Under the pieces are notes generated by a model. That model was not told where the DNA came from and made no database searches. It saw only the letters and a program-made list of their open reading frames with translations. Below are positions 3,406-20,866 of a stretch of 64,000 nucleotides of DNA, one piece after another. Position 1 is the stretch's first letter. Each line of letters begins with the position of its first letter. This stretch comes from Marinobacter salinisoli (lineage in GTDB: Bacteria; Pseudomonadota; Gammaproteobacteria; Pseudomonadales; Oleiphilaceae), in the NCBI RefSeq assembly GCF_017301335.1, contig NZ_CP071247.1, positions 992,001 through 1,056,000 on the forward strand, written 5' to 3'. Made by a program: the position numbers and the translations under genes.

Positions 3406-4626
3406 ATGCCCACGGAAACAGCCTCCCCTGCATCACCCATGGCGCTGGAACACATTCGGGTTCTGGAGCTTGGGCAACTCATCGCTGGCCCCTATTGCGG
3501 TCAGATCCTCGCGGACTTCGGCGCCGAGGTGATCAAGATTGAACCGCCCGGCAAGGGTGATGCCATGCGCCAGTGGGGCACCACGGACGAGCATGGCGAT
3601 CCCATCTGGTGGAACGTGATCGGCCGCAACAAGAAATCCGTGACCCTGGATTTGCGCCAGCCCGAAGGCCAGGCTCTGCTCAGGGATCTGGCGGCCACCG
3701 CCGATGTGCTGATCGAGAACTTCCGCCCGGGCACCATGGAGAAATGGGGCCTGGGTTACGACGTGCTGGCGGCGCTGAACCCGAAGCTGGTGATGGTGCG
3801 GGTGACCGGCTTTGGCCAGGACGGCCCCTACGCCAAGCGGGCGGGTTTTGCTGCCGTGTGCGAGGCCATGGGCGGGTTGCGCTACATCAGCGGCTATCCG
3901 GACCGGCCCCCGGTGCGGGTCGGTATTTCCCTGGGGGATTCCCTGGCCGGGTTGCACGGTGCCCTGGGCGCGATGGTGGCGCTGCAGAACCGGGAACGTA
4001 CCGGCAAGGGGCAAGTGGTGGACAGCGCCATCTACGAATCGGTGCTGGCGATGATGGAGAGCCTGATTCCCGACTACGCCCGTGCCGGTAAAGTGCGCGA
4101 GCGCAGTGGCAGTTTCCTGCCCGGCCTGGCGCCGTCAAACGCCTACCCGACGCGTGATGGCCGGGATGTGGTCATTGGCGCCAACCAGGACACCGTCTTC
4201 GCCCGGTTGTGCGAGGCCATGGGGCAGCCGAAGCTGGCCCGGCACCCGGATTACGCCACTCACCGGGCCCGGGGCGAAAACCAGCGGGCGATTGATGATC
4301 TGGTGAGCGCCTGGACCCGTCAGCACGACGCCCAGCACATCGTGGATTTGCTGGCGGAGGCCGGCGTACCGGCGGGCCTGGTCTACCGCGCGCCGGAAAT
4401 GCTCGACGATCCCCACTTCCGGGCCCGTGAAAGCATTGTCGAGGTACCTGACCGCCACGGCGAGCCCCTGCCCATGCAACAGGTGTTTCCGCGCCTGTCG
4501 GACACTCCGGGCCGTGTGCGCCACGTGGGAGTCGGCCTCGGGGCTCACACCGGGGAGGTGCTGGGCACGGTACTGGGGCTGGACGAGCCAACCCTGGCCG
4601 GGCTCAGAGGCAAGCAGGTGATCTGA
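3406..4626 (+). CDS. CaiB/BaiF family (class III) CoA-transferase
   Basis: This 406-residue protein shows class III CoA-transferase features. They are VLELGQLIAGPYCGQILADFGAEVIKIE near the N-terminus, ENFRPGTMEKWGLGY, a GD motif (ISLGDSLAG) that fits the catalytic Asp of formyl-CoA transferase, and RTGKGQVVDSAIYESV. It would move CoA between carboxylic acids through aspartyl-CoA thioester intermediates. The substrate is not evident; formyl-, succinyl- or acyl-CoA types all look alike. The ATG at 3406 is preferred over an in-frame TTG four codons upstream. It stands alone. Confidence 0.87.
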   Translation: MPTETASPASPMALEHIRVLELGQLIAGPYCGQILADFGAEVIKIEPPGKGDAMRQWGTTDEHGDPIWWNVIGRNKKSVTLDLRQPEGQALLRDLAATADVLIENFRPGTMEKWGLGYDVLAALNPKLVMVRVTGFGQDGPYAKRAGFAAVCEAMGGLRYISGYPDRPPVRVGISLGDSLAGLHGALGAMVALQNRERTGKGQVVDSAIYESVLAMMESLIPDYARAGKVRERSGSFLPGLAPSNAYPTRDGRDVVIGANQDTVFARLCEAMGQPKLARHPDYATHRARGENQRAIDDLVSAWTRQHDAQHIVDLLAEAGVPAGLVYRAPEMLDDPHFRARESIVEVPDRHGEPLPMQQVFPRLSDTPGRVRHVGVGLGAHTGEVLGTVLGLDEPTLAGLRGKQVI

Positions 4627-4780
4627 GCCACGCGGTTGCTGTGGCCACTCGTTCGATAGCCTTCGGCTCTGCTAATCTGGACAAAAGGCCGACGCCATTG
4701 ATACAACCGGTTGCGATCCCCTCGGGCCTGGCCCGGGAGATCGCCCGACTGGCGTCTAACGTTCAACAGGAGGCATAGTT

Positions 4781-5404
4781 GTGAAACTAGAAGTCCGAGG
4801 TATTGACGAAGGGCAGCCGATTCCCGAGCGATTTGCTTTCGGGGTCTACAGTCCGACCGACCACATGAGCTTTGGTCCGAACAAGAATCCGGAACTGGTT
4901 TGGGACGAGGTGCCCGAGGGCACCAGAAGCTTTGCGGTGATCATGTTCGATCCGGATGTGCCCAGTGTCGCCGACGACGTCAACAAAGAAGGCAAGACCG
5001 TGTCCGAGGGCCTGCCCCGGGTGGATTTTTTCCACTGGTTGCTGGTGGATATCCCCGCGGATGTTCGTCGCATTCCCGAAGGCGAAGACAGCGATGGCGT
5101 GTTTCCGAAAGGGAAACCCGGTGGCCCCGGGCCGATCGGCGTCCGGGGTGTGAACAATTACACCCAGTTCCTGGCAGACAATCCGGATATGGGCGGCACC
5201 TACTGCGGTTACGACGGCCCCTGCCCGCCCTGGAACGACGAAATCGTTCACCACTATCACTTTGAGGTTTTCGCCCTGGACGTGGCCAGCCTGGGACTGG
5301 ACGGGGCGTTCGACGGCAACGACGTGCGCGAGGCGATCAAAGGCCATGTGCTGGGCAGTGCGCGGGTCACCGGCACCTACACCCTGAACCCCGACCTGCG
5401 CTAA
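4781..5404 (+). CDS. YbhB/YbcL-type PEBP (Raf kinase inhibitor-like) protein
   Basis: This 207-residue protein starts at GTG with CAGGAGG upstream. It contains PEBP features: PELVWDEVPEGTRSFAVIMFDPDVP, the ligand-site FFHWLLVDIP, and YCGYDGPCPPWNDEIVHHYHFEVFALD. No signal peptide is seen, so it is likely cytoplasmic. Bacterial homologues such as YbhB have a conserved anion-binding pocket but no settled function. The longer insert around NKEGKTVSEG resembles marine homologues. Confidence 0.85.
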   Translation: MKLEVRGIDEGQPIPERFAFGVYSPTDHMSFGPNKNPELVWDEVPEGTRSFAVIMFDPDVPSVADDVNKEGKTVSEGLPRVDFFHWLLVDIPADVRRIPEGEDSDGVFPKGKPGGPGPIGVRGVNNYTQFLADNPDMGGTYCGYDGPCPPWNDEIVHHYHFEVFALDVASLGLDGAFDGNDVREAIKGHVLGSARVTGTYTLNPDLR

Positions 5405-5426
5405 GGCCGACCCGGCCAGACAAGCC

Positions 5427-5456
5427 GCGCTGTGACCGGTTTTGCCGGCACAGCGC
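5427..5456 (+). terminator. Strong hairpin after the PEBP gene
   Basis: GCGCTGTG and CACAGCGC form a perfect 8-bp stem, extended inward by CCGG/CCGG around TTTTG. It lies 23 bases after the stop. No run of T follows, so termination efficiency is uncertain. Confidence 0.5.
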
Positions 5457-5549
5457 AACAATCACCACGATTGATCTTGTATCCAGCTGGAAAACTTGCT
5501 GTCCAGGGACCACGATTAAGTGAAGCGCTTAATCACGGCAGGACAGGCC

Positions 5550-6074
5550 ATGGCTACCCCGACACAACACCCGTTACCCAGGGCGGGAGCCGAGGGCGAC
5601 TGGAGCGAAGACGCCATCCGGCAGCAGGTGAATGCCTTGCGGCACAAGCCCGGTGCTCTACTGCCGATTCTGCATGCGATTCAGGACCGGGTCGGTTACA
5701 TCCCGGACGGCGCGGTGGCCATCATCGCCGACGCCCTGCAGCAGTCCCGCGCCGAAATCCACGGCGTCATCAGCTTTTACCACCATTTCCGCACCCGACC
5801 AGCCGGTGCCCACGTGCTGCAAATCTGCCGGGCCGAAGCCTGCCAGTCCATGGGTTGCCGGACACTGGAAGCGCACATCCAGCAGCGCCTGGGTGTGGAC
5901 TTCCACCAGACCACCCCCGATCGTGAATTCACCCTGGAGCCGGTCTATTGCCTGGGTAATTGCGCGTGCGCACCGTCGATCCGGGTCGATGACACCATCC
6001 ACGGGCGGATGACGACGGAGAAATTTGACCGGCTGGCGGAACAACTCACCACCTCGACACTCGAAGTGAAATAA
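5550..6074 (+). CDS. fdsG: NAD-linked formate dehydrogenase gamma subunit (NuoE-like)
   Basis: This 174-residue NuoE/thioredoxin-fold [2Fe-2S] protein has cluster ligands in CRAEACQSMGC and CLGNCAC. It passes electrons between FdsA and the flavin subunit FdsB in the soluble complex formate + NAD+ -> CO2 + NADH. I use the ATG at 5550 (MATPTQHP); a GTG at 5520 would add ten residues. It is the first gene of fdsGBA-fdhD-fdsD and is followed 13 bases later by fdsB. No FdsR-like LysR regulator is present beside it. Confidence 0.92.
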   Translation: MATPTQHPLPRAGAEGDWSEDAIRQQVNALRHKPGALLPILHAIQDRVGYIPDGAVAIIADALQQSRAEIHGVISFYHHFRTRPAGAHVLQICRAEACQSMGCRTLEAHIQQRLGVDFHQTTPDREFTLEPVYCLGNCACAPSIRVDDTIHGRMTTEKFDRLAEQLTTSTLEVK

Positions 6075-6087
6075 ACAGGGGAACCAC

Positions 6088-7626
6088 ATGGCAACGCGCA
6101 TCTATGTGCCCTGCGACACCACCGCACTCTCTTTGGGCGCGGACGAGGTGGCGAGGCGAATCGAGCAGGCTGCCGGCGATCGGGGGCTGAGCATCCGGCT
6201 CGTGCGCAATGGCTCCCGGGGCCTGTGCTGGCTTGAACCGCTGGTGGAGGTGGATACCGGCCGGGGCAGAATCGCCTACGGGCCGGTGGCGCCTGAGGAC
6301 CTGCCCGAGCTGTTGGACGCGGGCCTGCTGGATGGCCAGCCGGGCCACAGCAAATGCCTTGGCAACATTGAAGAACATCCCTATCTGAAGCGCCAGCAGC
6401 GCCTGACCTTTGCCCGTATCGGGCTGACCGACCCACTCTCGCTTGACGATTACCGGGCGCACGGTGGCTTCGAGGGGCTGGAGCGGGCAGCCGGGATGAC
6501 GCCGCAGGCCATCGTCGATCAGGTCAGGGAATCCGGGCTGCGGGGCCGGGGCGGTGCGGCCTTCCCCACCGGCATCAAGTGGCAGACGGTGCTGAACCAG
6601 CCTGGCGACCAGCAGAAATACATAGTGTGCAACGCGGATGAGGGCGATTCCGGCAGTTTTGCTGACCGGCTGGTGATGGAGTGCGACCCCTACCTGCTGA
6701 TCGAGGGCATGGTGATTGCCGGGCTGGCGGTGGGTGCGGACCAGGGCTACATCTACCTGCGGGAAGAATACCCGGTGGCCCACCGTATCCTGAACCAGGC
6801 CATCGCCCGGGCAGAGGCCGAGGATTATCTGGGGGCAGACCTTCGCGGCACCGGGCAAAGCTTTCATCTTGAGGTCCGGCTGGCGGCCGGGGCCTATATC
6901 TGTGGCGAGGAAACGTCGCTGCTGGAGAGTCTCGAAGGCAAGCGCGGACTGGTGCGAGCCAAGCCGCCATTGCCGGCCATTCACGGCCTGTTTGGCCAGC
7001 CCACGGTGGTCAATAACGTGCTGTCGCTGGCGACCGTGCCGTTCATTCTGGCCCGGGGCGCATCGACGTACGCCAACGTGGGCATGGGCAAGTCCCGGGG
7101 CACCCTGCCGATCCAGCTGGCGGGCAATATCCGCCGGGGCGGCCTGATAGAACTGGGTTTTGGCATCACGCTGCGGGAAATCCTGGAGGACTTCGGCGGC
7201 GGCACATATTCCGGCCGGCCCATGAAGGCGGTGCAAGTGGGCGGCCCCCTGATGGCTTATCTGCCGGACAGCCAGTGGGATACCCCGATGGATTACGAGG
7301 CGTTCGCCCAGATCGGTGCCGGAATCGGCCACGGCGGTGTGGTGGCGTTCGATGACACCGTAGACATGGGCGAACAGGCCCGTTTTGCCATGGAGTTCTG
7401 CACGGTGGAATCCTGCGGCAAGTGTACGCCCTGCCGCATCGGTTCGGTCCGCGGCGTGGAAGTGATTGACCGCATCAGGGCCGGCGAGCACCCGGAAGCT
7501 AATCTCGCGTTACTGGAAGATCTGTGTGAAACCATGGTGGATGGCTCGCTGTGTGCCATGGGCGGGATGACGCCGTTCCCGGTACAGAGTGTCATGAAAC
7601 ATTTTCCGGGCGACCTCAAAGGCTGA
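6088..7626 (+). CDS. fdsB: NAD-linked formate dehydrogenase beta subunit (NuoF-like)
   Basis: This 512-residue protein has a short thioredoxin-like N-terminus followed by the NuoF core. GRGGAAFPTGIKW (about residue 152) and CNADEGDSGSF belong to the NADH/FMN site, and ESCGKCTPCRIG (about residue 440) binds a [4Fe-4S] cluster. It reduces NAD+ with electrons from FdsA/FdsG. AGGGGAA precedes the ATG. It sits between fdsG and fdsA with 13- and 17-base gaps, a tight operon. Confidence 0.94.
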   Translation: MATRIYVPCDTTALSLGADEVARRIEQAAGDRGLSIRLVRNGSRGLCWLEPLVEVDTGRGRIAYGPVAPEDLPELLDAGLLDGQPGHSKCLGNIEEHPYLKRQQRLTFARIGLTDPLSLDDYRAHGGFEGLERAAGMTPQAIVDQVRESGLRGRGGAAFPTGIKWQTVLNQPGDQQKYIVCNADEGDSGSFADRLVMECDPYLLIEGMVIAGLAVGADQGYIYLREEYPVAHRILNQAIARAEAEDYLGADLRGTGQSFHLEVRLAAGAYICGEETSLLESLEGKRGLVRAKPPLPAIHGLFGQPTVVNNVLSLATVPFILARGASTYANVGMGKSRGTLPIQLAGNIRRGGLIELGFGITLREILEDFGGGTYSGRPMKAVQVGGPLMAYLPDSQWDTPMDYEAFAQIGAGIGHGGVVAFDDTVDMGEQARFAMEFCTVESCGKCTPCRIGSVRGVEVIDRIRAGEHPEANLALLEDLCETMVDGSLCAMGGMTPFPVQSVMKHFPGDLKG

Positions 7627-14767: not shown

Positions 14768-15736
14768 ATGATGTTGATCAAGAAGACGGTACGGCAAAGG
14801 GTGTCTGGGCCCGGGCTGGTGTGCTTGCTTGGCCTTGTTCTGCTGCTGCCGGTGCCGGCGGTGGCGCAGCAGAAAAACGGTTTTGATCTGGGGGCGGCGC
14901 TGATCCCTCCCGAACAGATTCTCCGGGGCGGGCCGCCCCGGGATGGCATCCCGGCATTGCTGAACCCGCGCTTTGAGAAACCGGCCGAGAGCCAGCCTTG
15001 GGCGGCTGGCGACCTGATGCTTACGTACGACGATCAACGCCAAAGCCTGGCTTTTCCGGTGGGCATTCTGAACTGGCACGAGATCGTCCAGACGGAGCTG
15101 AATGGCCAGCCCCTGCTGATTACCTTCTGCCCCCTGTGCGGCACCGGCATTGGCTTCAGCCCGGTGGTTGATGGCCGGGAACTATCTTTCGGTGTGTCCG
15201 GCCTGCTCTACAACAGCGACCTGCTGATGTACGACCACCAGACCGAGTCCTTATGGTCGCAAATCGAAGGCCGGGCGGTTTCCGGGCCGCTGGCCGGGAA
15301 GAAACTTGAACGTGTGCCGGTCCGGCATGAACGCTGGCAGGGCTGGCGCGAACGCGCCGGGCCGGCAGGCCGGGTGTTGTCCACCGACACCGGTTACCGC
15401 CGAGATTATCTGAAGTCCCCTTACGGCAATTACAGTCAGTCCGAGCGTCTCTACTTTCCGGTCAGCCAGACCAGCCGGAAATACCACCCGAAAACCTGGG
15501 TGCTGGGCTGGGTTCACAACGGGGAGGCCAAGGCCTGGCCGTTTCCCGAACTGGCGAAACACGGCGGTCTGCTGCAGGACGACATCGGCGGCAAGGCGGT
15601 CACGGTTGTCTATGACCCGGACGTTCCGGCGGCCGAGCTGAGGGATGAAAACGGGACACTGTTGCCGGCCACCCGGGCGTTCTGGTTTGCCTGGTACACC
15701 TTCCACCCGGACACTGGAATCTTCGAGCATCAATAA
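14768..15736 (+). CDS. DUF3179 domain-containing secreted protein
   Basis: This 322-residue protein has a signal peptide (hydrophobic LVCLLGLVLLLPVPAVA, cleavage near AVAQQ). The DUF3179 core includes ITFCPLCGTGIGFSP, FGVSGLLYNSDLLMYDHQTESLWSQ and WVLGWVHNGEAKAWPF. The CPLC pair and several conserved aromatic residues suggest metal or redox binding, but no function is established for the family. Two Met codons at 14768 and 14771 are possible starts. It opens a run of genes, three on this strand, that includes an NPC-repeat cytochrome. Confidence 0.88.
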   Translation: MMLIKKTVRQRVSGPGLVCLLGLVLLLPVPAVAQQKNGFDLGAALIPPEQILRGGPPRDGIPALLNPRFEKPAESQPWAAGDLMLTYDDQRQSLAFPVGILNWHEIVQTELNGQPLLITFCPLCGTGIGFSPVVDGRELSFGVSGLLYNSDLLMYDHQTESLWSQIEGRAVSGPLAGKKLERVPVRHERWQGWRERAGPAGRVLSTDTGYRRDYLKSPYGNYSQSERLYFPVSQTSRKYHPKTWVLGWVHNGEAKAWPFPELAKHGGLLQDDIGGKAVTVVYDPDVPAAELRDENGTLLPATRAFWFAWYTFHPDTGIFEHQ

Positions 15737-15751
15737 TTCGGTGTCCGGGTG
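15704..15751 (+). terminator. Inverted repeat spanning the DUF3179 stop codon
   Basis: CACCCGGACAC (15704-15714) and GTGTCCGGGTG (15741-15751) form a perfect 11-bp stem whose loop holds the stop codon. There is no T tract. It may protect the mRNA end or reduce read-through into the cytochrome gene. Confidence 0.45.
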
Positions 15752-15848
15752 TAATAGTTGCAGAATTCATGTGTCTCCCTGTTAACCGCCCTGCGCGGTA
15801 CAACGGTCCGAAACGGGCCACCGACGATGAAACGAGGGAGAGAACACC

Positions 15849-16724
15849 ATGAACAACAATCTCCACCCACTTCGACAGGCTATCCGGGCGTCGGGTGAAC
15901 ACCGGCGCACCACCTGGTGGTCAGCCATGCTGATGACCGCCTTGCTGGCGGGGCCCGCAGCGGTATCCGCTGCCTGTAATCCCTGTTCGCCGTGCAAGGG
16001 CCAATGCAAGGCCGGCCAGCAGTGCAAGGCCGGATGCAATCCCTGCGCGGGCAAGAACCCTTGCGCCGCCAAGAACCCCTGTGCGGGCAAGAATCCTTGT
16101 GCCGTGAAAGGCTGTAACCCGTGTGCCACCGAGGGCTGCAACCCGTGCGCAGTCAAAGGCTGCAATCCCTGCGCGGCCGGCGGCAAATGCGCGGCCAAAC
16201 CCAACCCCTGTGCCGCCAAGCGGGTAACCCGGCCCGACGGCTATCAGCCGTACGAGGGCAATCCCTGTGCCCTGTTGGCGCTGGGCAAAACGCTGTTCAA
16301 TGACACGTCCCTGAGCACCAACGGCCTGTCGTGTGCAAGCTGTCACAGTGATGGTGCCGGCTTCAAAGCGACGTTTGCCAACGCTTACCCGCACTCGGTG
16401 GCCATGGCCCGGGACATATTCGGTATGGCGAGCGTGCATCTGGATGAAATGGTGCAGATCTGCATGGTGCAGCCGATGGCAGCCGAGCCCTTGCCCTGGG
16501 ACAGCGAAGAGCTGGCGGCGTTGACGGCCTACACCGAAAAAGTCCGGGTTGAGCTGGCGGCCAATCCCTGTGCCCTGAAGAGCGGCAAGTGTGGTGCCTG
16601 TAACCCCTGCGCGGGCAAGAACCCTTGCGCCACGAAAAACCCCTGCGCTACCAAGAATCCGTGCGCCGGCAAGAATCCCTGTGCATCGACACGGGTGAAG
16701 GCAGGTAAACCGGAAGCCGCTTAG
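15849..16724 (+). CDS. Secreted mono-haem c-type cytochrome flanked by Asn-Pro-Cys (NPC) repeats
   Basis: This 291-residue protein has a signal peptide of about 41 residues ending AAVSA. A first block of NPC repeats follows (about residues 43-124, units such as KNPCAGK and KGCNPCAV). The haem domain has CASCH at residues 162-166 and a possible Met ligand in VQPMAAEPL. A second block follows (about 239-280). I count 16 NPC units and 30 Cys. The core resembles a short cytochrome c. The repeats resemble a thiol-rich metal-binding or cross-linked surface, which is inference. GGGAGAGAACACC precedes the ATG. Confidence 0.85.
   Translation: MNNNLHPLRQAIRASGEHRRTTWWSAMLMTALLAGPAAVSAACNPCSPCKGQCKAGQQCKAGCNPCAGKNPCAAKNPCAGKNPCAVKGCNPCATEGCNPCAVKGCNPCAAGGKCAAKPNPCAAKRVTRPDGYQPYEGNPCALLALGKTLFNDTSLSTNGLSCASCHSDGAGFKATFANAYPHSVAMARDIFGMASVHLDEMVQICMVQPMAAEPLPWDSEELAALTAYTEKVRVELAANPCALKSGKCGACNPCAGKNPCATKNPCATKNPCAGKNPCASTRVKAGKPEAA
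15975..16220 (+). repeat. DNA repeat encoding the N-terminal NPC block
   Basis: Imperfect 12-15-base units of the form AAGAAYCCYTGYGCC recur here in frame and encode K-N-P-C-A. Codon use varies between units, so this is a coding repeat under protein-level selection rather than a recent slippage array. It could mimic a CRISPR or minisatellite in automated screens. Confidence 0.75.
16561..16690 (+). repeat. DNA repeat encoding the C-terminal NPC block
   Basis: A second set of in-frame units encodes NPCALK, NPCAGK, NPCATK, NPCATK, NPCAGK and NPCAS. It shares the unit of the N-terminal block, and the haem domain lies between the two. Confidence 0.75.
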
Positions 16725-16794: not shown

Positions 16795-17508
16795 ATGACA
16801 CAGCTTCACATACCGGCGTTGTCGACACTGACGGACCGGCAGATCCGCGCCAGCCTGGCAGCCGTGGATGACATCCGGGAGTGCTACCGGGTACTGGAGA
16901 AGGCCGGCTTGAACATCGTTGGCGAGGTACTCAAGGGGCAAGGTCCGTTTTACGAGCTGGATCATTACCCGCAAGGGGATGTCTTCGATTCGGCGACCGC
17001 CTCACAGTATTACTATCATGCCCACCGCACCGATCATGGCGAGCATGGGCATTTTCACCTGTTTCTCCGTGATGGCGCCATTCCGATGGGCGAGGCTCCG
17101 GTGCTTGGTCCGGTGGGGAAAGACCAGGTGGTGCATCTGGTGGCCATTTCCATGGACGCCTGGGGTTACCCGACCGACCTGTTTGCGGTGAACCGGTGGG
17201 TGACCGATGAAAGCTGGTTGCCGGCCAGCCGGATCGTTCCGGCCCTGGGTCGGTTCGAGATGGACCATGCCTATCCGAGCTGGCCGGTGAATCAATGGCT
17301 GACGGCCATGGTGCGGTGTTTCCGGCCCCAGATCGAGGCGCTGCTGAAGCACCGGGATCAGAGGGTGGCGGCGCACCCGGGTGCGTTGCAGGAAACGCTG
17401 GAAGATCGCGCGCTGGAGATCACCGGCAGCCTGCCGATCGATGTGGAGCTGTGGGCCGCCGCGCTGGCGGATGAGCAGCACCGGCGGGTGGCGACGCGCA
17501 GGGCCTGA
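16795..17508 (+). CDS. Conserved protein of unknown function, His-rich (possibly DUF6969)
   Basis: This 237-residue soluble protein has no signal peptide or membrane segment. Its most striking part is SQYYYHAHRTDHGEHGHFHLFLR (about residues 65-87), with six His and acidic residues that could bind a metal. I recall a similar conserved family (DUF6969) but cannot verify it. CAAGGAGAACGCA precedes the ATG. It follows the NPC cytochrome by 70 bases on the same strand, so a shared transcript is likely. A link to metal or haem handling is inference. Confidence 0.6.
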   Translation: MTQLHIPALSTLTDRQIRASLAAVDDIRECYRVLEKAGLNIVGEVLKGQGPFYELDHYPQGDVFDSATASQYYYHAHRTDHGEHGHFHLFLRDGAIPMGEAPVLGPVGKDQVVHLVAISMDAWGYPTDLFAVNRWVTDESWLPASRIVPALGRFEMDHAYPSWPVNQWLTAMVRCFRPQIEALLKHRDQRVAAHPGALQETLEDRALEITGSLPIDVELWAAALADEQHRRVATRRA

Positions 17509-17535: not shown

Positions 17536-17796
17536 TCACTGGCCGGGACCGGAAGGCGGCTGACGTTCCTGCAGGGCCGAACTGACCCGCTGCCGGATGC
17601 GGTCGATCACCTCGTCATCCGCCTGGGCCGAGGAATGCCCCTGCATCAGCCGGGTACTCATGCGCAGATTGCCGATGAACGAGCGGCAGTCCTTGCACAT
17701 CATCAGATGCATTTTCACGGACACGGATTGGCCGAAGCTCAGTTCGCCGTCGATGTAGTCGCTGGCGATACCTGCCAGGTCACGACACATTAGCAT
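17536..17796 (-). CDS. Zinc-finger anti-sigma factor (zf-HC2 type)
   Basis: This is an 84-86-residue protein. An N-terminal Cys (MLMCRDL) together with KMHLMMCKDCRSF gives the C...HxxxCxxC ZAS motif of zinc-binding anti-sigma factors. It has no transmembrane helix, so it is a soluble anti-sigma. Two starts exist: ATG at 17796, or ATG at 17790 overlapping the sigma stop (TAATG). It is co-transcribed with the ECF sigma and presumably holds it inactive until thiol oxidation or zinc loss. Confidence 0.85.
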   Translation of the reverse strand: MLMCRDLAGIASDYIDGELSFGQSVSVKMHLMMCKDCRSFIGNLRMSTRLMQGHSSAQADDEVIDRIRQRVSSALQERQPPSGPGQ

Positions 17797-18407
17797 TCGC
17801 CTGTCTCCTGGAACGTTTCCACCATCAAGAATATTTTCTGCCGTGCCCGGTGCAACAGCACCCGCAAATTGGAGGCACTGACATCCAGAATGTTACAGAC
17901 ATCCTCGGATTTGTGTTGATGCGCCTCGTACAGAATCAGCGCCGAGCGCTGGGTTTCGGGCAGTGCGCCCAGGTGCTTGTCCAGGCAATCGCTGAGGGCG
18001 CCGTTTTCCATCAACGCATCGGCGGTTTCCTCGAAACGCAGTTTTGGCGGCGTGGACCAGCGGCCGGAGGGCTTGAATCGGCTGTCCAGTTCCGGTTCCA
18101 GGACTTCTCCGAAATCCGTGGTGATTTCCCGGTTGCTGGTTCGCAGACGGTTCTTGCAGCGATTGGCGACAATCCGATGGAGCCAGGTTTTCAGGCTGGA
18201 GCGACTTTCAAAACGCTGGATTGCGTCAATGACGGTGACCCAGCAATCCTGCACAATTTCCTCAGCGGTCGACGGATCCACGTAAAACCGTGCCACCGAC
18301 AGCATGCCAGCGGTATGTTCCGATACGGCCTGCTCGTAGGCGGACTGATCGCCCCGTTTCAAGCCGTCGACCAGACTCTGTTCGTCAAGCGCGGTGGGGG
18401 TGCGCAC
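17790..18407 (-). CDS. ECF-family RNA polymerase sigma factor
   Basis: This 205-residue protein has region 2 (RFYVDPSTAEEIVQDCWVTVIDAI, SSLKTWLHRIVANRCKNRLR) and region 4 (LPETQRSALILYEAHQHKSEDVCNILDVSASNLRVLLHRARQKI). The GTG start at 18407 has AGGGAG seven bases upstream and gives a typical ECF N-terminus; the open frame extends further. The anti-sigma gene follows at once. It is divergent from the TVP38-reductase gene, whose upstream region has an ECF-like promoter. It likely responds to redox, metal or singlet-oxygen-type stress. Confidence 0.9.
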   Translation of the reverse strand: MRTPTALDEQSLVDGLKRGDQSAYEQAVSEHTAGMLSVARFYVDPSTAEEIVQDCWVTVIDAIQRFESRSSLKTWLHRIVANRCKNRLRTSNREITTDFGEVLEPELDSRFKPSGRWSTPPKLRFEETADALMENGALSDCLDKHLGALPETQRSALILYEAHQHKSEDVCNILDVSASNLRVLLHRARQKIFLMVETFQETGEC

Positions 18408-18542
18408 GTGTCTGCTCCCTGTTTTCCGTTCCTGGTTTGTCCATGAATCGTCCCGAAGGTTTCCGCCAACCGGCCGGAAAACCATTGCTCTTTCTCAGCT
18501 TATAACAGTTTGGGCGGGTGTGCGGGCTTCGTGGCGGTGCGG

Positions 18543-18572: not shown

Positions 18573-18676
18573 TCTGCCTCGAAGCGCGACTTTTGAAGAA
18601 ATTATTCAAGACAACTGTAACAATGTCGGGGACTTGGCATCAGTGCAGTATCAAATCAACAACACGGGATGATGTG

Positions 18677-20866
18677 ATGAACCGGAAAAAGTGGCTGATG
18701 ATACTGGCGATCGTCGCCGTGGTGGTGACCTTCTGGGCCAGTGGCGCCCAGGAAGTGCTGACCCTGGATTACCTGAAAACCCATCAACAAAGCCTGCAGG
18801 CATGGATCGCCGACAACACCGGCTTGGCGATTGGCGGATACACGCTGATCTACATTCTGGTCACCGCCTTGTCCCTGCCGGGCGCCGCCATCATGACGCT
18901 GGCCGGCGGTGCCTTTTTCGGCAACCTCTATGGCCTGGCGGCCGTGTCTGTCGCGTCCACCATCGGTGCGTCCATTGCGTTTCTGGTCGCCCGTTTCCTT
19001 GCCCGCGATACCCTGCGGGAAAAATACGCGGCCACCGTGGCGCGCATGGATCGGGGCATTGAAAAGGACGGTGCCTTCTACCTGGCCACCCTGCGTCTGG
19101 TGCCCGTGTTCCCGTTCTTCCTGATCAACATCGCCATGGGGCTGACGGGCATGAAGCTGAGCACTTATGCGCTGGTCAGCTGGCTGGCGATGTTGCCGGG
19201 CACCTTTGTGTATGTGAATGCCGGCACTCAGCTGGCGCAGATACAGTCCACCTCCGACATTGTCTCAGCGGATTTGCTGCTGTCCTTTGCCTTGCTGGGG
19301 CTGTTCCCGCTGATTGCCAAGTTTGTTGTCGGCTTCATCCGCCGCCGCCGGGTCTATGCCGGCTGGCAGAAGCCGGAAAGCTTCGATTACAACCTGCTGG
19401 TGATCGGCGGTGGGTCAGCCGGCCTGGTGTCGGCCTACATTGCCGCGGCGGTAAAAGCCAAGGTGGCGTTGATCGAGCAGAACAAGATGGGCGGCGACTG
19501 CCTGAATACCGGGTGCGTGCCGTCCAAGGCGCTGATCCGCACGGCCCGGGCCGCGGATACCCTGCGCCATGCCAACCGCTATGGCCTGGAGTCTGTGCCG
19601 GTCAAAGGGTCGTTCAAGAACATCATGGAACGGGTGCACCGGATCATTGCCACCGTGGAGCCTCACGATTCACCCGAGCGCTATCGCAAGCTGGGTGTCG
19701 ACTGCATTGCCGGCAAGGCCAGCTTTATCTCGCCCTGGGAGCTGGAGGTGACCTATCCCGACGGCCGTCAGGAAAGGCTGACTGCCCGCAGCATCGTCAT
19801 CGCCACCGGTGGCAAGCCGGCCCTGCCGCCGATTCCGGGGCTGGCGGATATGAATCCGCTGCATTCCGACAATCTCTGGTCGATTGAAGAACAGCCACAA
19901 CGGCTGCTGGTTCTTGGTGGCGGTCCGATTGGTTCGGAGCTGGCCCATGCTTTTGCCCGCCTCGGTTCCCAGGTGGTGCAGGTGCAGCGCGGGGAGCAGA
20001 TTCTGGCCAAAGAAGATCCGGATGTTGCCGAGGCGGTGCAGACGCAGTTCGAGGCCGACGGCATAGATGTCCGGCTGAACCACAGTGCCCGCGAATTCCG
20101 CATCGAGGACGGGGAAAAAGTCCTGATCTGCGACCACCACGGCGAGCAGGTTCGCATTCCCTTCGATCAGGTGCTGGTGGCGGTGGGCCGGAGCGCGAAC
20201 ACCGACGGGCTAGGCCTGGAGCGCATCGGCATCGAGCCACTGCCGAACGGGGCGGTGCCGGTAGAGGACGACATGAGTGTCCGCTACCCGAACGTGTTTG
20301 CCTGCGGCGACGTCGCTGGGCCCTATCAGTTTACCCACGCGGCGGCGCACCAGGCCTGGTATGCCGCGGTGAATGGTCTGTTTGGACAGTTCAAGCGATT
20401 CAAGGTGGATTACCGGGTGATGCCCTGGGTGACCTTTACCTCACCGGAGGTGGCACGGGTCGGCCTGAGCGAGGCCGAGGCGCGGGAAAAAGGCATCGCC
20501 GTCGAGGTCACCCGTTACGGACTGGACGATCTGGACAGGGCCATTGCCGAAAGCGAAGCGTATGGATTTATCAAGGTACTGACGCCGCCGGGTAAGGACA
20601 AAATCCTGGGGGCCGTGGTGGTGGGCGCCCATGCCGGGGAAATCCTGGCGGAATTCACTCTGGCCATGAAGCATAACCTGGGCCTGAACAAGATTCTGGG
20701 CACCATTCACCCCTACCCGACCTGGAACGAATCGGCCAAATACGCCGCCGGCGAGTGGAAACGCGCCAACGCGCCGGAGCGCGTACTGAAACTTCTGGAA
20801 AAACTCCACGGCTGGCGCCGCGGTAAAGATACGAAAGACCCAAGGAGCCTTTATGCCCCTGATTGA
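18677..20866 (+). CDS. TVP38/TMEM64 membrane domain fused to a dihydrolipoamide-dehydrogenase-like flavoprotein
   Basis: This is a 729-residue fusion. Residues 1-235 form a SNARE-associated/TVP38 (DedA-like) membrane domain with about six hydrophobic segments and the motif GAAIMTLAGGAFFG. Residues 238-729 are a class I pyridine nucleotide-disulfide reductase: FAD motif VIGGGSAGL, redox pair CLNTGCVPSK (275-280), NAD(P) motif LGGGPIGSELAHAFARLGSQV, and a C-terminal dimer domain with HPYPTWNE. It resembles mercuric or dihydrolipoyl reductases but is membrane-anchored. The start MNRKKW is chosen because upstream frame extensions lack an ATG. Its end overlaps the radical SAM gene. Confidence 0.9.
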   Translation: MNRKKWLMILAIVAVVVTFWASGAQEVLTLDYLKTHQQSLQAWIADNTGLAIGGYTLIYILVTALSLPGAAIMTLAGGAFFGNLYGLAAVSVASTIGASIAFLVARFLARDTLREKYAATVARMDRGIEKDGAFYLATLRLVPVFPFFLINIAMGLTGMKLSTYALVSWLAMLPGTFVYVNAGTQLAQIQSTSDIVSADLLLSFALLGLFPLIAKFVVGFIRRRRVYAGWQKPESFDYNLLVIGGGSAGLVSAYIAAAVKAKVALIEQNKMGGDCLNTGCVPSKALIRTARAADTLRHANRYGLESVPVKGSFKNIMERVHRIIATVEPHDSPERYRKLGVDCIAGKASFISPWELEVTYPDGRQERLTARSIVIATGGKPALPPIPGLADMNPLHSDNLWSIEEQPQRLLVLGGGPIGSELAHAFARLGSQVVQVQRGEQILAKEDPDVAEAVQTQFEADGIDVRLNHSAREFRIEDGEKVLICDHHGEQVRIPFDQVLVAVGRSANTDGLGLERIGIEPLPNGAVPVEDDMSVRYPNVFACGDVAGPYQFTHAAAHQAWYAAVNGLFGQFKRFKVDYRVMPWVTFTSPEVARVGLSEAEAREKGIAVEVTRYGLDDLDRAIAESEAYGFIKVLTPPGKDKILGAVVVGAHAGEILAEFTLAMKHNLGLNKILGTIHPYPTWNESAKYAAGEWKRANAPERVLKLLEKLHGWRRGKDTKDPRSLYAPD

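Follow-up and report, generated by a model that had tools for sequence, protein, structure and literature searches.

DUF6969 genes are associated with genes for cysteine arrays, and this association follows the array rather than the protein that carries it. The example from which we started lies in a window of 64,000 nucleotides of the Marinobacter salinisoli genome (contig NZ_CP071247.1, positions 992,001 to 1,056,000), where the gene next after that of an Asn-Pro-Cys (NPC) repeat cytochrome c encodes a DUF6969 protein. We lean towards a two-part system in which a metal-binding DUF6969 acts on the array cysteines, by modifying or loading them, ahead of Sec export, giving a product that would handle sulfane sulfur or a soft metal.

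Architecture of the NPC-Repeat Cytochrome Locus

The features of the locus, numbered from the first nucleotide of the window, are as follows.

14768..15736, + strand, DUF3179 protein (PF11376, Pfam)
15750..15776, + strand, candidate ECF promoter upstream of the NPC gene, TGTAATA ... TGTGTCT (by eye)
15849..16724, + strand, NPC-repeat cytochrome c (ORF with ATG start, 291 aa, 30 Cys, 16 NPC)
15849..15974, + strand, putative Sec signal peptide, residues 1-42, VSAA end, preceding the array start at 15975 (judged by eye)
15975..16220, + strand, N-terminal Cys array, C43-K124, nine NPC units and other Cys (sequence count)
16218..16559, + strand, SoxA/TsdA-type haem c domain, about residues 124-237 (PF21342, invariant columns, PDB sequence and fold matches)
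16332..16346, + strand, codons of the haem motif CASCH, residues 162-166
16461..16463, + strand, codon of the invariant Cys205 of the haem domain (alignment of relatives)
16563..16691, + strand, C-terminal Cys array, six NPC units from residue 239, missing in some relatives
16795..17508, + strand, DUF6969 protein (PF22308), 237 aa, putative cytoplasmic metalloenzyme and array maturase (262.8 bits against a cut-off of 27)
17536..17796, - strand, anti-sigma factor with a zf-HC2 domain (Pfam/NCBIfam)
17790..18485, - strand, ECF-type sigma factor, possible regulator (Pfam)

The original prediction, made from the letters alone, had described the reading frame with its cysteine and NPC counts and position of the haem motif, and all of these were confirmed. 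It had also proposed a c-type cytochrome behind a signal peptide. The CxxCH domain bears out the cytochrome, and the N-terminus, Arg-rich and then hydrophobic up to VSAAC, resembles by eye a Sec signal. Nine NPC units occupy residues 44-121 and five occupy residues 252-278; one more stands on each side of the haem motif, at 138 and 239. Fourteen of the 30 cysteines lie outside NPC units, two of them in CASCH and one being the invariant cysteine of the haem domain. When the residues of the protein were shuffled 20,000 times, the NPC count averaged 0.21 and never exceeded 3, compared with the real 16, and this is the only one of the window's 371 ORFs of 60 aa or more that has two or more NPC units. 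No family in Pfam or NCBIfam covers the layout at the thresholds we applied, in agreement with the earlier claim that no described family has it. Our literature search, which covered few subscription journals, found nothing on NPCAAK or on periplasmic Asn-Pro-Cys repeats.

The 16 NPC units are encoded by nine different 9-mers, and their 120 pairwise comparisons gave 197 codon differences at third positions and none at first or second positions. The repeats are thus not a fresh DNA expansion, and variation confined to third positions argues that the array is held by selection on the protein; a neutral expansion is excluded by this bias. It had been suggested that the repeats could turn out to be random low-complexity expansions not conserved in related strains. 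This is not what we found, because relatives in other Pseudomonadota keep the Cys arrays; at the same time, the arrays differ in number of repeats, some relatives lack the C-terminal block, and one clade of the genus carries acidic repeats instead. The TGTAATA ... TGTGTCT motif can also be recognised by eye upstream in genus relatives, and genes of the acidic (EGEA) type have a similar GTAACA/GTGTCC upstream.

A Haem Domain of the SoxA/TsdA Type

Residues 146-230 match PF21342 (SoxA-TsdA_cyt-c) with 36.1 bits, above the Pfam gathering cut-off of 27, and a profile of 15 relatives gave SoxA chain 1h31 as the best sequence match in the PDB (E 6e-7). Modelled with AlphaFold, the domain (pLDDT 88.7) returned SoxA or TsdA chains as all of the first 12 Foldseek matches, with probabilities of 0.94-1.00, TM scores of 0.49-0.64 and E values of 0.014-0.098, none being below 0.001. 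The invariant columns include CxxCH and a third cysteine, residue 205, which aligns with a cysteine of 1h31 that we take to be a haem axial ligand in SoxA. The haem domain of the NPC cytochrome therefore belongs to the SoxA/TsdA type. It is not SoxA proper, as the SoxA equivalog TIGR04484 in NCBIfam scores 28.5 bits against a cut-off of 110. The MbnH/MauG di-haem models also remain below their cut-offs (23.1 against 362.85 and 17.7 against 443.85), and the protein has a single CxxCH.

Unlike SoxA and TsdA, the window protein combines this one CxxCH with Cys arrays on either side, and no Sox genes were found among the ten window proteins scanned with Pfam. SoxY has one carrier cysteine on a Gly-rich tail. 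The likeness to SoxYZ is one of idea only, namely that periplasmic cysteines would carry the sulfur intermediates that a SoxA-type cytochrome produces; in contrast to SoxY, the window protein has 27 cysteines besides the haem motif and Cys205, and these sit on unrelated repeats.

DUF6969 and Its Genomic Neighbours

Across 20 diverse DUF6969 sequences, H75, H77, E83, H86, H88, H114, N133, R187 and D188 are invariant, and in the alignment this His/Glu cluster resembles a metal site with several His. The structure model is confident (pLDDT 91.5, pTM 0.89) and found no good relatives in the PDB, where the best sequence match had an E value of 0.6 and the best fold match an E value of 0.12 with a TM score of 0.15. 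We found no literature on DUF6969, including any biochemistry or assay, in a search that reached few subscription journals. None of 80 DUF6969 proteins has a 15-residue stretch reaching a Kyte-Doolittle value of 1.6 within the first 60 residues of the matched part, whereas 69 of 84 NPC proteins have such a stretch ahead of the array. This difference suggests a likely order in which DUF6969 acts in the cytoplasm and Sec export follows.

Genes around DUF6969 were grouped into sequence clusters and counted over 99 loci; most clusters take their annotation from a single member or a few. A DUF3179-like gene occurs in 20 of the 99 (one member Pfam-checked). The literature lists DUF3179 as one of the selenoprotein families that carry a UxxC/T motif, which would fit a role in thiol redox chemistry. 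Sigma-like genes are found near DUF6969 in 19 of the 99 loci and fall into two clusters, one of them Pfam-checked and the other, alphaproteobacterial, without Pfam support; a neighbour cluster of a 149-aa protein is likewise without Pfam support. Beyond the sigma gene of the window, positions 18593-20866 encode a VTT-domain protein fused to a flavoprotein that resembles mercuric reductase and lipoamide dehydrogenase, below the cut-offs of those families. A radical SAM gene lies downstream of it, and several relatives within the genus have this pair next to their sigma gene.

DUF6969 Genes Accompany Cysteine Arrays

DUF6969 is present in 20 of the 398 genomes of our phylum sample and in none of 14 control genomes. 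An NPCA-xx-NPCA pattern occurs in 17 of the 398, with no reversed control among the matches listed, and ten genomes have both (Fisher 1e-10). In 17 of the 20 DUF6969 genomes, a Cys-array gene is found about 2 kb or less from DUF6969. The neighbouring array is NPC-rich in the host (G000) and in G006, G158, G299, G409, G413, G418, G421 and G435; it has few NPC units in G254, G344 and G433 (four each) and G296 (two), and consists of other Cys repeats in G142, G432, G385 and G448, that of G448 being weak with six Cys. In G136 DUF6969 stands at a contig start and the array is on another contig, in G073 the array lies elsewhere in the genome, away from DUF6969, and in G216 no array was found. Conversely, seven of the 17 NPC-positive genomes are without DUF6969 (G059, G079, G113, G229, G108, G306, G321). 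Three of them have an ORF with only two NPC and two are 57-67% complete; the solid exceptions are G108, which is 99% complete and has 13 NPC with a haem domain of the same kind, and G079 with seven NPC.

The same linkage is seen in a named collection of 80 loci, which are the best-scoring of at least 569 confirmed relatives. With 11 from Marinobacter, they form neither a random nor an independent sample. In 65 of these best 80, an ORF with three or more NPC lies within 2.5 kb of DUF6969, and all of the 84 NPC ORFs are at most 3.3 kb from DUF6969 though the flanks reach up to 6 kb. The other 15 of the 80 have no NPC ORF near DUF6969, although in five of these one flank is shorter than 1.5 kb, and a first filter for Cys-rich ORFs found none in them. 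A looser filter detected CDPC-type Cys arrays within 1.5 kb in two (L127 and L141), leaving 13 of the 80 with no array nearby by these filters. These two arrays (L127:2463-3701 and L141:581-1702) are long ORFs about 1.4 kb from DUF6969 that the NPC count had missed. The genomes of eight of the 15 loci were searched with a P460-type query: four have an array elsewhere, three gave no match, and one (G481) returned the L141 neighbour. Two of the collected loci, L092 and L093, are on two contigs of one Marinobacter mobilis genome, with equal scores and NPC ORFs of equal length.

In a genus sample of 61 genomes, the NPC pattern occurs in 14 and DUF6969 in 15, and all 14 are within the 15 (Fisher 7e-13). 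In the one left over, G005, DUF6969 and the NPC gene are neighbours and both are shortened. G015, too, carries a shortened DUF6969 next to its NPC cytochrome, together with a full second copy at another NPC locus.

Arrays Sit on Diverse Passengers

By pattern, the 84 NPC ORFs divide into 36 SoxA-like, 17 P460-like, two phosphatase-like and 26 stand-alone arrays, with three unassigned; after reading the three pattern misses, the counts were 38, 17, two and 27, respectively. Pfam checks identified one P460 passenger as PF16694 and the phosphatase passenger of L044 as PF22741 plus PF04273. Because the arrays sit on such diverse passengers, DUF6969 follows the array and not the passenger. CGAK, CAA and KPCAAK arrays also adjoin some DUF6969 genes, so that the common feature is closely spaced cysteines, pointing to Cys as what the arrays beside DUF6969 share. 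Selenocysteine in the arrays was considered and rejected, since the TGA codons of the match in G385 fall at or after the natural end of the KPCAAK peptide.

Array and Enzyme-Like Gene Are Exchanged Together within the Genus

Seven orthologous cytochromes of the genus carry EGEA-type acidic repeats in place of NPC and form one clade (support 100/98); two further relatives, in G004 and G025, are degenerate. The EGEA loci (L034-L040, 16 kb each) retain the sigma gene in seven of seven and the DUF3179 and anti-sigma genes in six of seven each. DUF6969 is absent from them, and an 800-aa TTL-family ligase is present (PF03133, 185-196 bits in the four scanned, with a PqqD-like stretch below cut-off). 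A stand-alone EGEA peptide passed our filter in six of the seven loci, that of L040 being shorter. In L034, for example, the TTL-family ATP-grasp ligase is encoded at 4201-6606 and the stand-alone EGEA peptide at 6687-6986.

Over the 61 genus genomes, the TTL ligase occurs in 13 (12 full-length, one fragment), none of which has DUF6969. The EGEA pattern occurs in 16, including all 12 with a full-length ligase; of the four others, G452, G462 and G470 have a single match each and in G019 the reversed control was positive too. The cytochrome has thus been swapped to an EGEA array plus a TTL-type ligase gene, a single evolutionary event, so that the genus statistics overstate independence. Each kind of array pairs with its own enzyme-like gene, as the maturase model predicts.

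TTL-family ligases act on acidic protein tails, for example that of tubulin. Here it is the EGEA sister variant, and not the window protein, that sits with a PF03133 ligase, and by analogy we infer that the EGEA repeats may be the substrate of the TTL-type ligase. Ligase, EGEA peptide and EGEA cytochrome could then form a possible bacterial tail-modifying system acting on acidic repeats. A paper on graspetides (PMC8939145), searched for TTL and tubulin, showed no mention of either.

Comparison with Bufferins

Bufferins (BufA), which have MNIO and DUF2063 partners, are described as Sec-exported Cys-rich precursors, some of them fused to cytochrome c domains, whose clusters encode a modifying metalloenzyme (MNIO) and in some cases sigma factors (PMC12452194). 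In the window, a protein with 30 Cys and a putative Sec signal would be the counterpart of the precursor, and the metalloenzyme-like neighbour, paired with it by genetic association, that of MNIO; a sigma gene is present too. In contrast to bufferin systems, the host genome has no MNIO (PF05114, zero matches and zero candidates), which rules out an MNIO of the same genome as maturase of the array. DUF6969 itself differs from MNIO in having neither a PF05114 match in Pfam nor a fold match in the PDB. Nor is there a bufferin precursor signature: the arrays are tandem NPC-type repeats, the window protein has no match to the bufferin/HvfA precursor family in Pfam or NCBIfam, and seven array proteins have none in NCBIfam. 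As both the enzyme and the precursor family differ, the system resembles bufferins in logic only. No DUF2063 gene was found among the ten window proteins scanned.

MNIO occurs in five of the 61 genus genomes, and only one of these (G022) also has DUF6969. Near DUF6969, MNIO-type genes are found at six of the 99 loci (L080, L106, L128, L133, L137, L140) and DUF2063-type genes at four. At L080, a CGAK-repeat peptide is encoded just ahead of DUF6969, downstream of MNIO-like and DUF2063-like genes.

Sulfur or Metal as Cargo

We think that sulfane sulfur or thiosulfate is slightly ahead as the cargo of the array and that copper or another soft metal is nearly as likely. The original prediction had proposed copper or soft-metal buffering, which may thus hold, and as another possibility a cross-linked surface layer, to which none of our observations points. 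The SoxA/TsdA type of the haem domain speaks for sulfur. PF04143-type sulfur transporters lie near DUF6969 in 15 of the 99 loci as one-piece and in five as two-piece genes (five members Pfam-checked), and rhodanese-type genes in four. YeeE-like proteins of Hyphomicrobium are reported to take part in sulfur import for oxidation (PMC11582611). The BLH_phosphatase passenger on an NPC array was also counted toward sulfur, but the P460 passengers and the MNIO neighbours do not point that way. An FGE-sulfatase-type gene occurs near DUF6969 in 12 of the 99 loci (L069, L070, L072, L096, L099, L101, L130, L135, L148, L151, L152, L155; one member Pfam-checked), a family termed cuproenzymes in PMC12452194. 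A HupE/UreJ gene lies near the NPC cytochrome of G108, a genome without DUF6969. The scan of ten window proteins turned up no sulfur transporter and no copper gene. With sulfur as its cargo, the array would be a carrier design with far more sites than SoxY; with copper, it would be a second bufferin-like system.

A Proposed Maturation Route and Its Alternatives

In the proposed two-part system, the array protein would be translated and DUF6969, holding a metal through its His/Glu cluster, would chemically modify or load the array cysteines in the cytoplasm. Sec export of the modified protein would follow, with haem attachment outside. Beyond the membrane the array would serve as a multi-site soft ligand, from whose chemistry the SoxA/TsdA-type haem would take electrons. 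DUF6969 would thus be to the array what MNIO is to bufferins, by way of an unrelated enzyme. On a broader proposal our judgement is evenly divided: DUF6969 may represent a new class of metal-dependent protein-modifying enzymes with an unsolved fold, acting on the cysteines of NPC arrays on diverse exported proteins, and array plus maturase may be an exchangeable cassette, as suggested by the EGEA/TTL swap on the same cytochrome, that tunes periplasmic electron-transfer and sulfur-carrier proteins.

DUF6969 could also be a metal loader or a chaperone. In the former case, which we regard as possible but doubtful, the array would stay unmodified and buffer copper or another soft metal much like a metallothionein, while DUF6969 would load or sense the metal and the haem domain would oxidise or reduce it. 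Cys-rich arrays with signal-like N-termini, a His-rich DUF6969 that could carry metal, the HupE/UreJ gene of G108 and the MNIO-, DUF2063- and FGE-sulfatase-type neighbours all fit such a buffer. However, no copper gene was found in the scan of ten window proteins, the haem type is that of sulfur enzymes, and EGEA replacing Cys on the same cytochrome would abolish soft-metal binding. We consider it improbable that DUF6969 is instead a chaperone or export partner without catalytic activity, holding the cysteines in reduced form until the protein is exported by Sec or receives its haem. Reduced arrays could indeed misfold or bind metal, the DUF6969 and array genes are closely linked, and the matched part of DUF6969 is free of a signal-like stretch, but the invariant HxH, E-x-G-H-x-H and further His would be unusual for a plain chaperone, haem-free stand-alone arrays accompany DUF6969 too, and the alternative partner of the EGEA arrays comes from a ligase family. 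We give almost no credence to the repeats being neutral low-complexity linkers with DUF6969 as a chance neighbour. The variable repeat number, the C-terminal block missing in some relatives and EGEA in place of NPC in one clade would be compatible with this, yet the NPC units vary at third codon positions only, the association with DUF6969 spans classes and passengers, and the array swap occurs together with an enzyme gene.

The maturation route, if true, would provide modified Cys arrays without MNIO enzymes, and it offers a testable function for the uncharacterised DUF6969 family, relatives of which are encoded by at least 569 stretches. The swap of array plus enzyme inside one genus is a natural experiment on array function. 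At L116, L135, L158, L163 and other loci, the stand-alone array and the fused array have signal-peptide motifs such as LLSST or LVSSG in common, possibly a leader recognised by the maturase.
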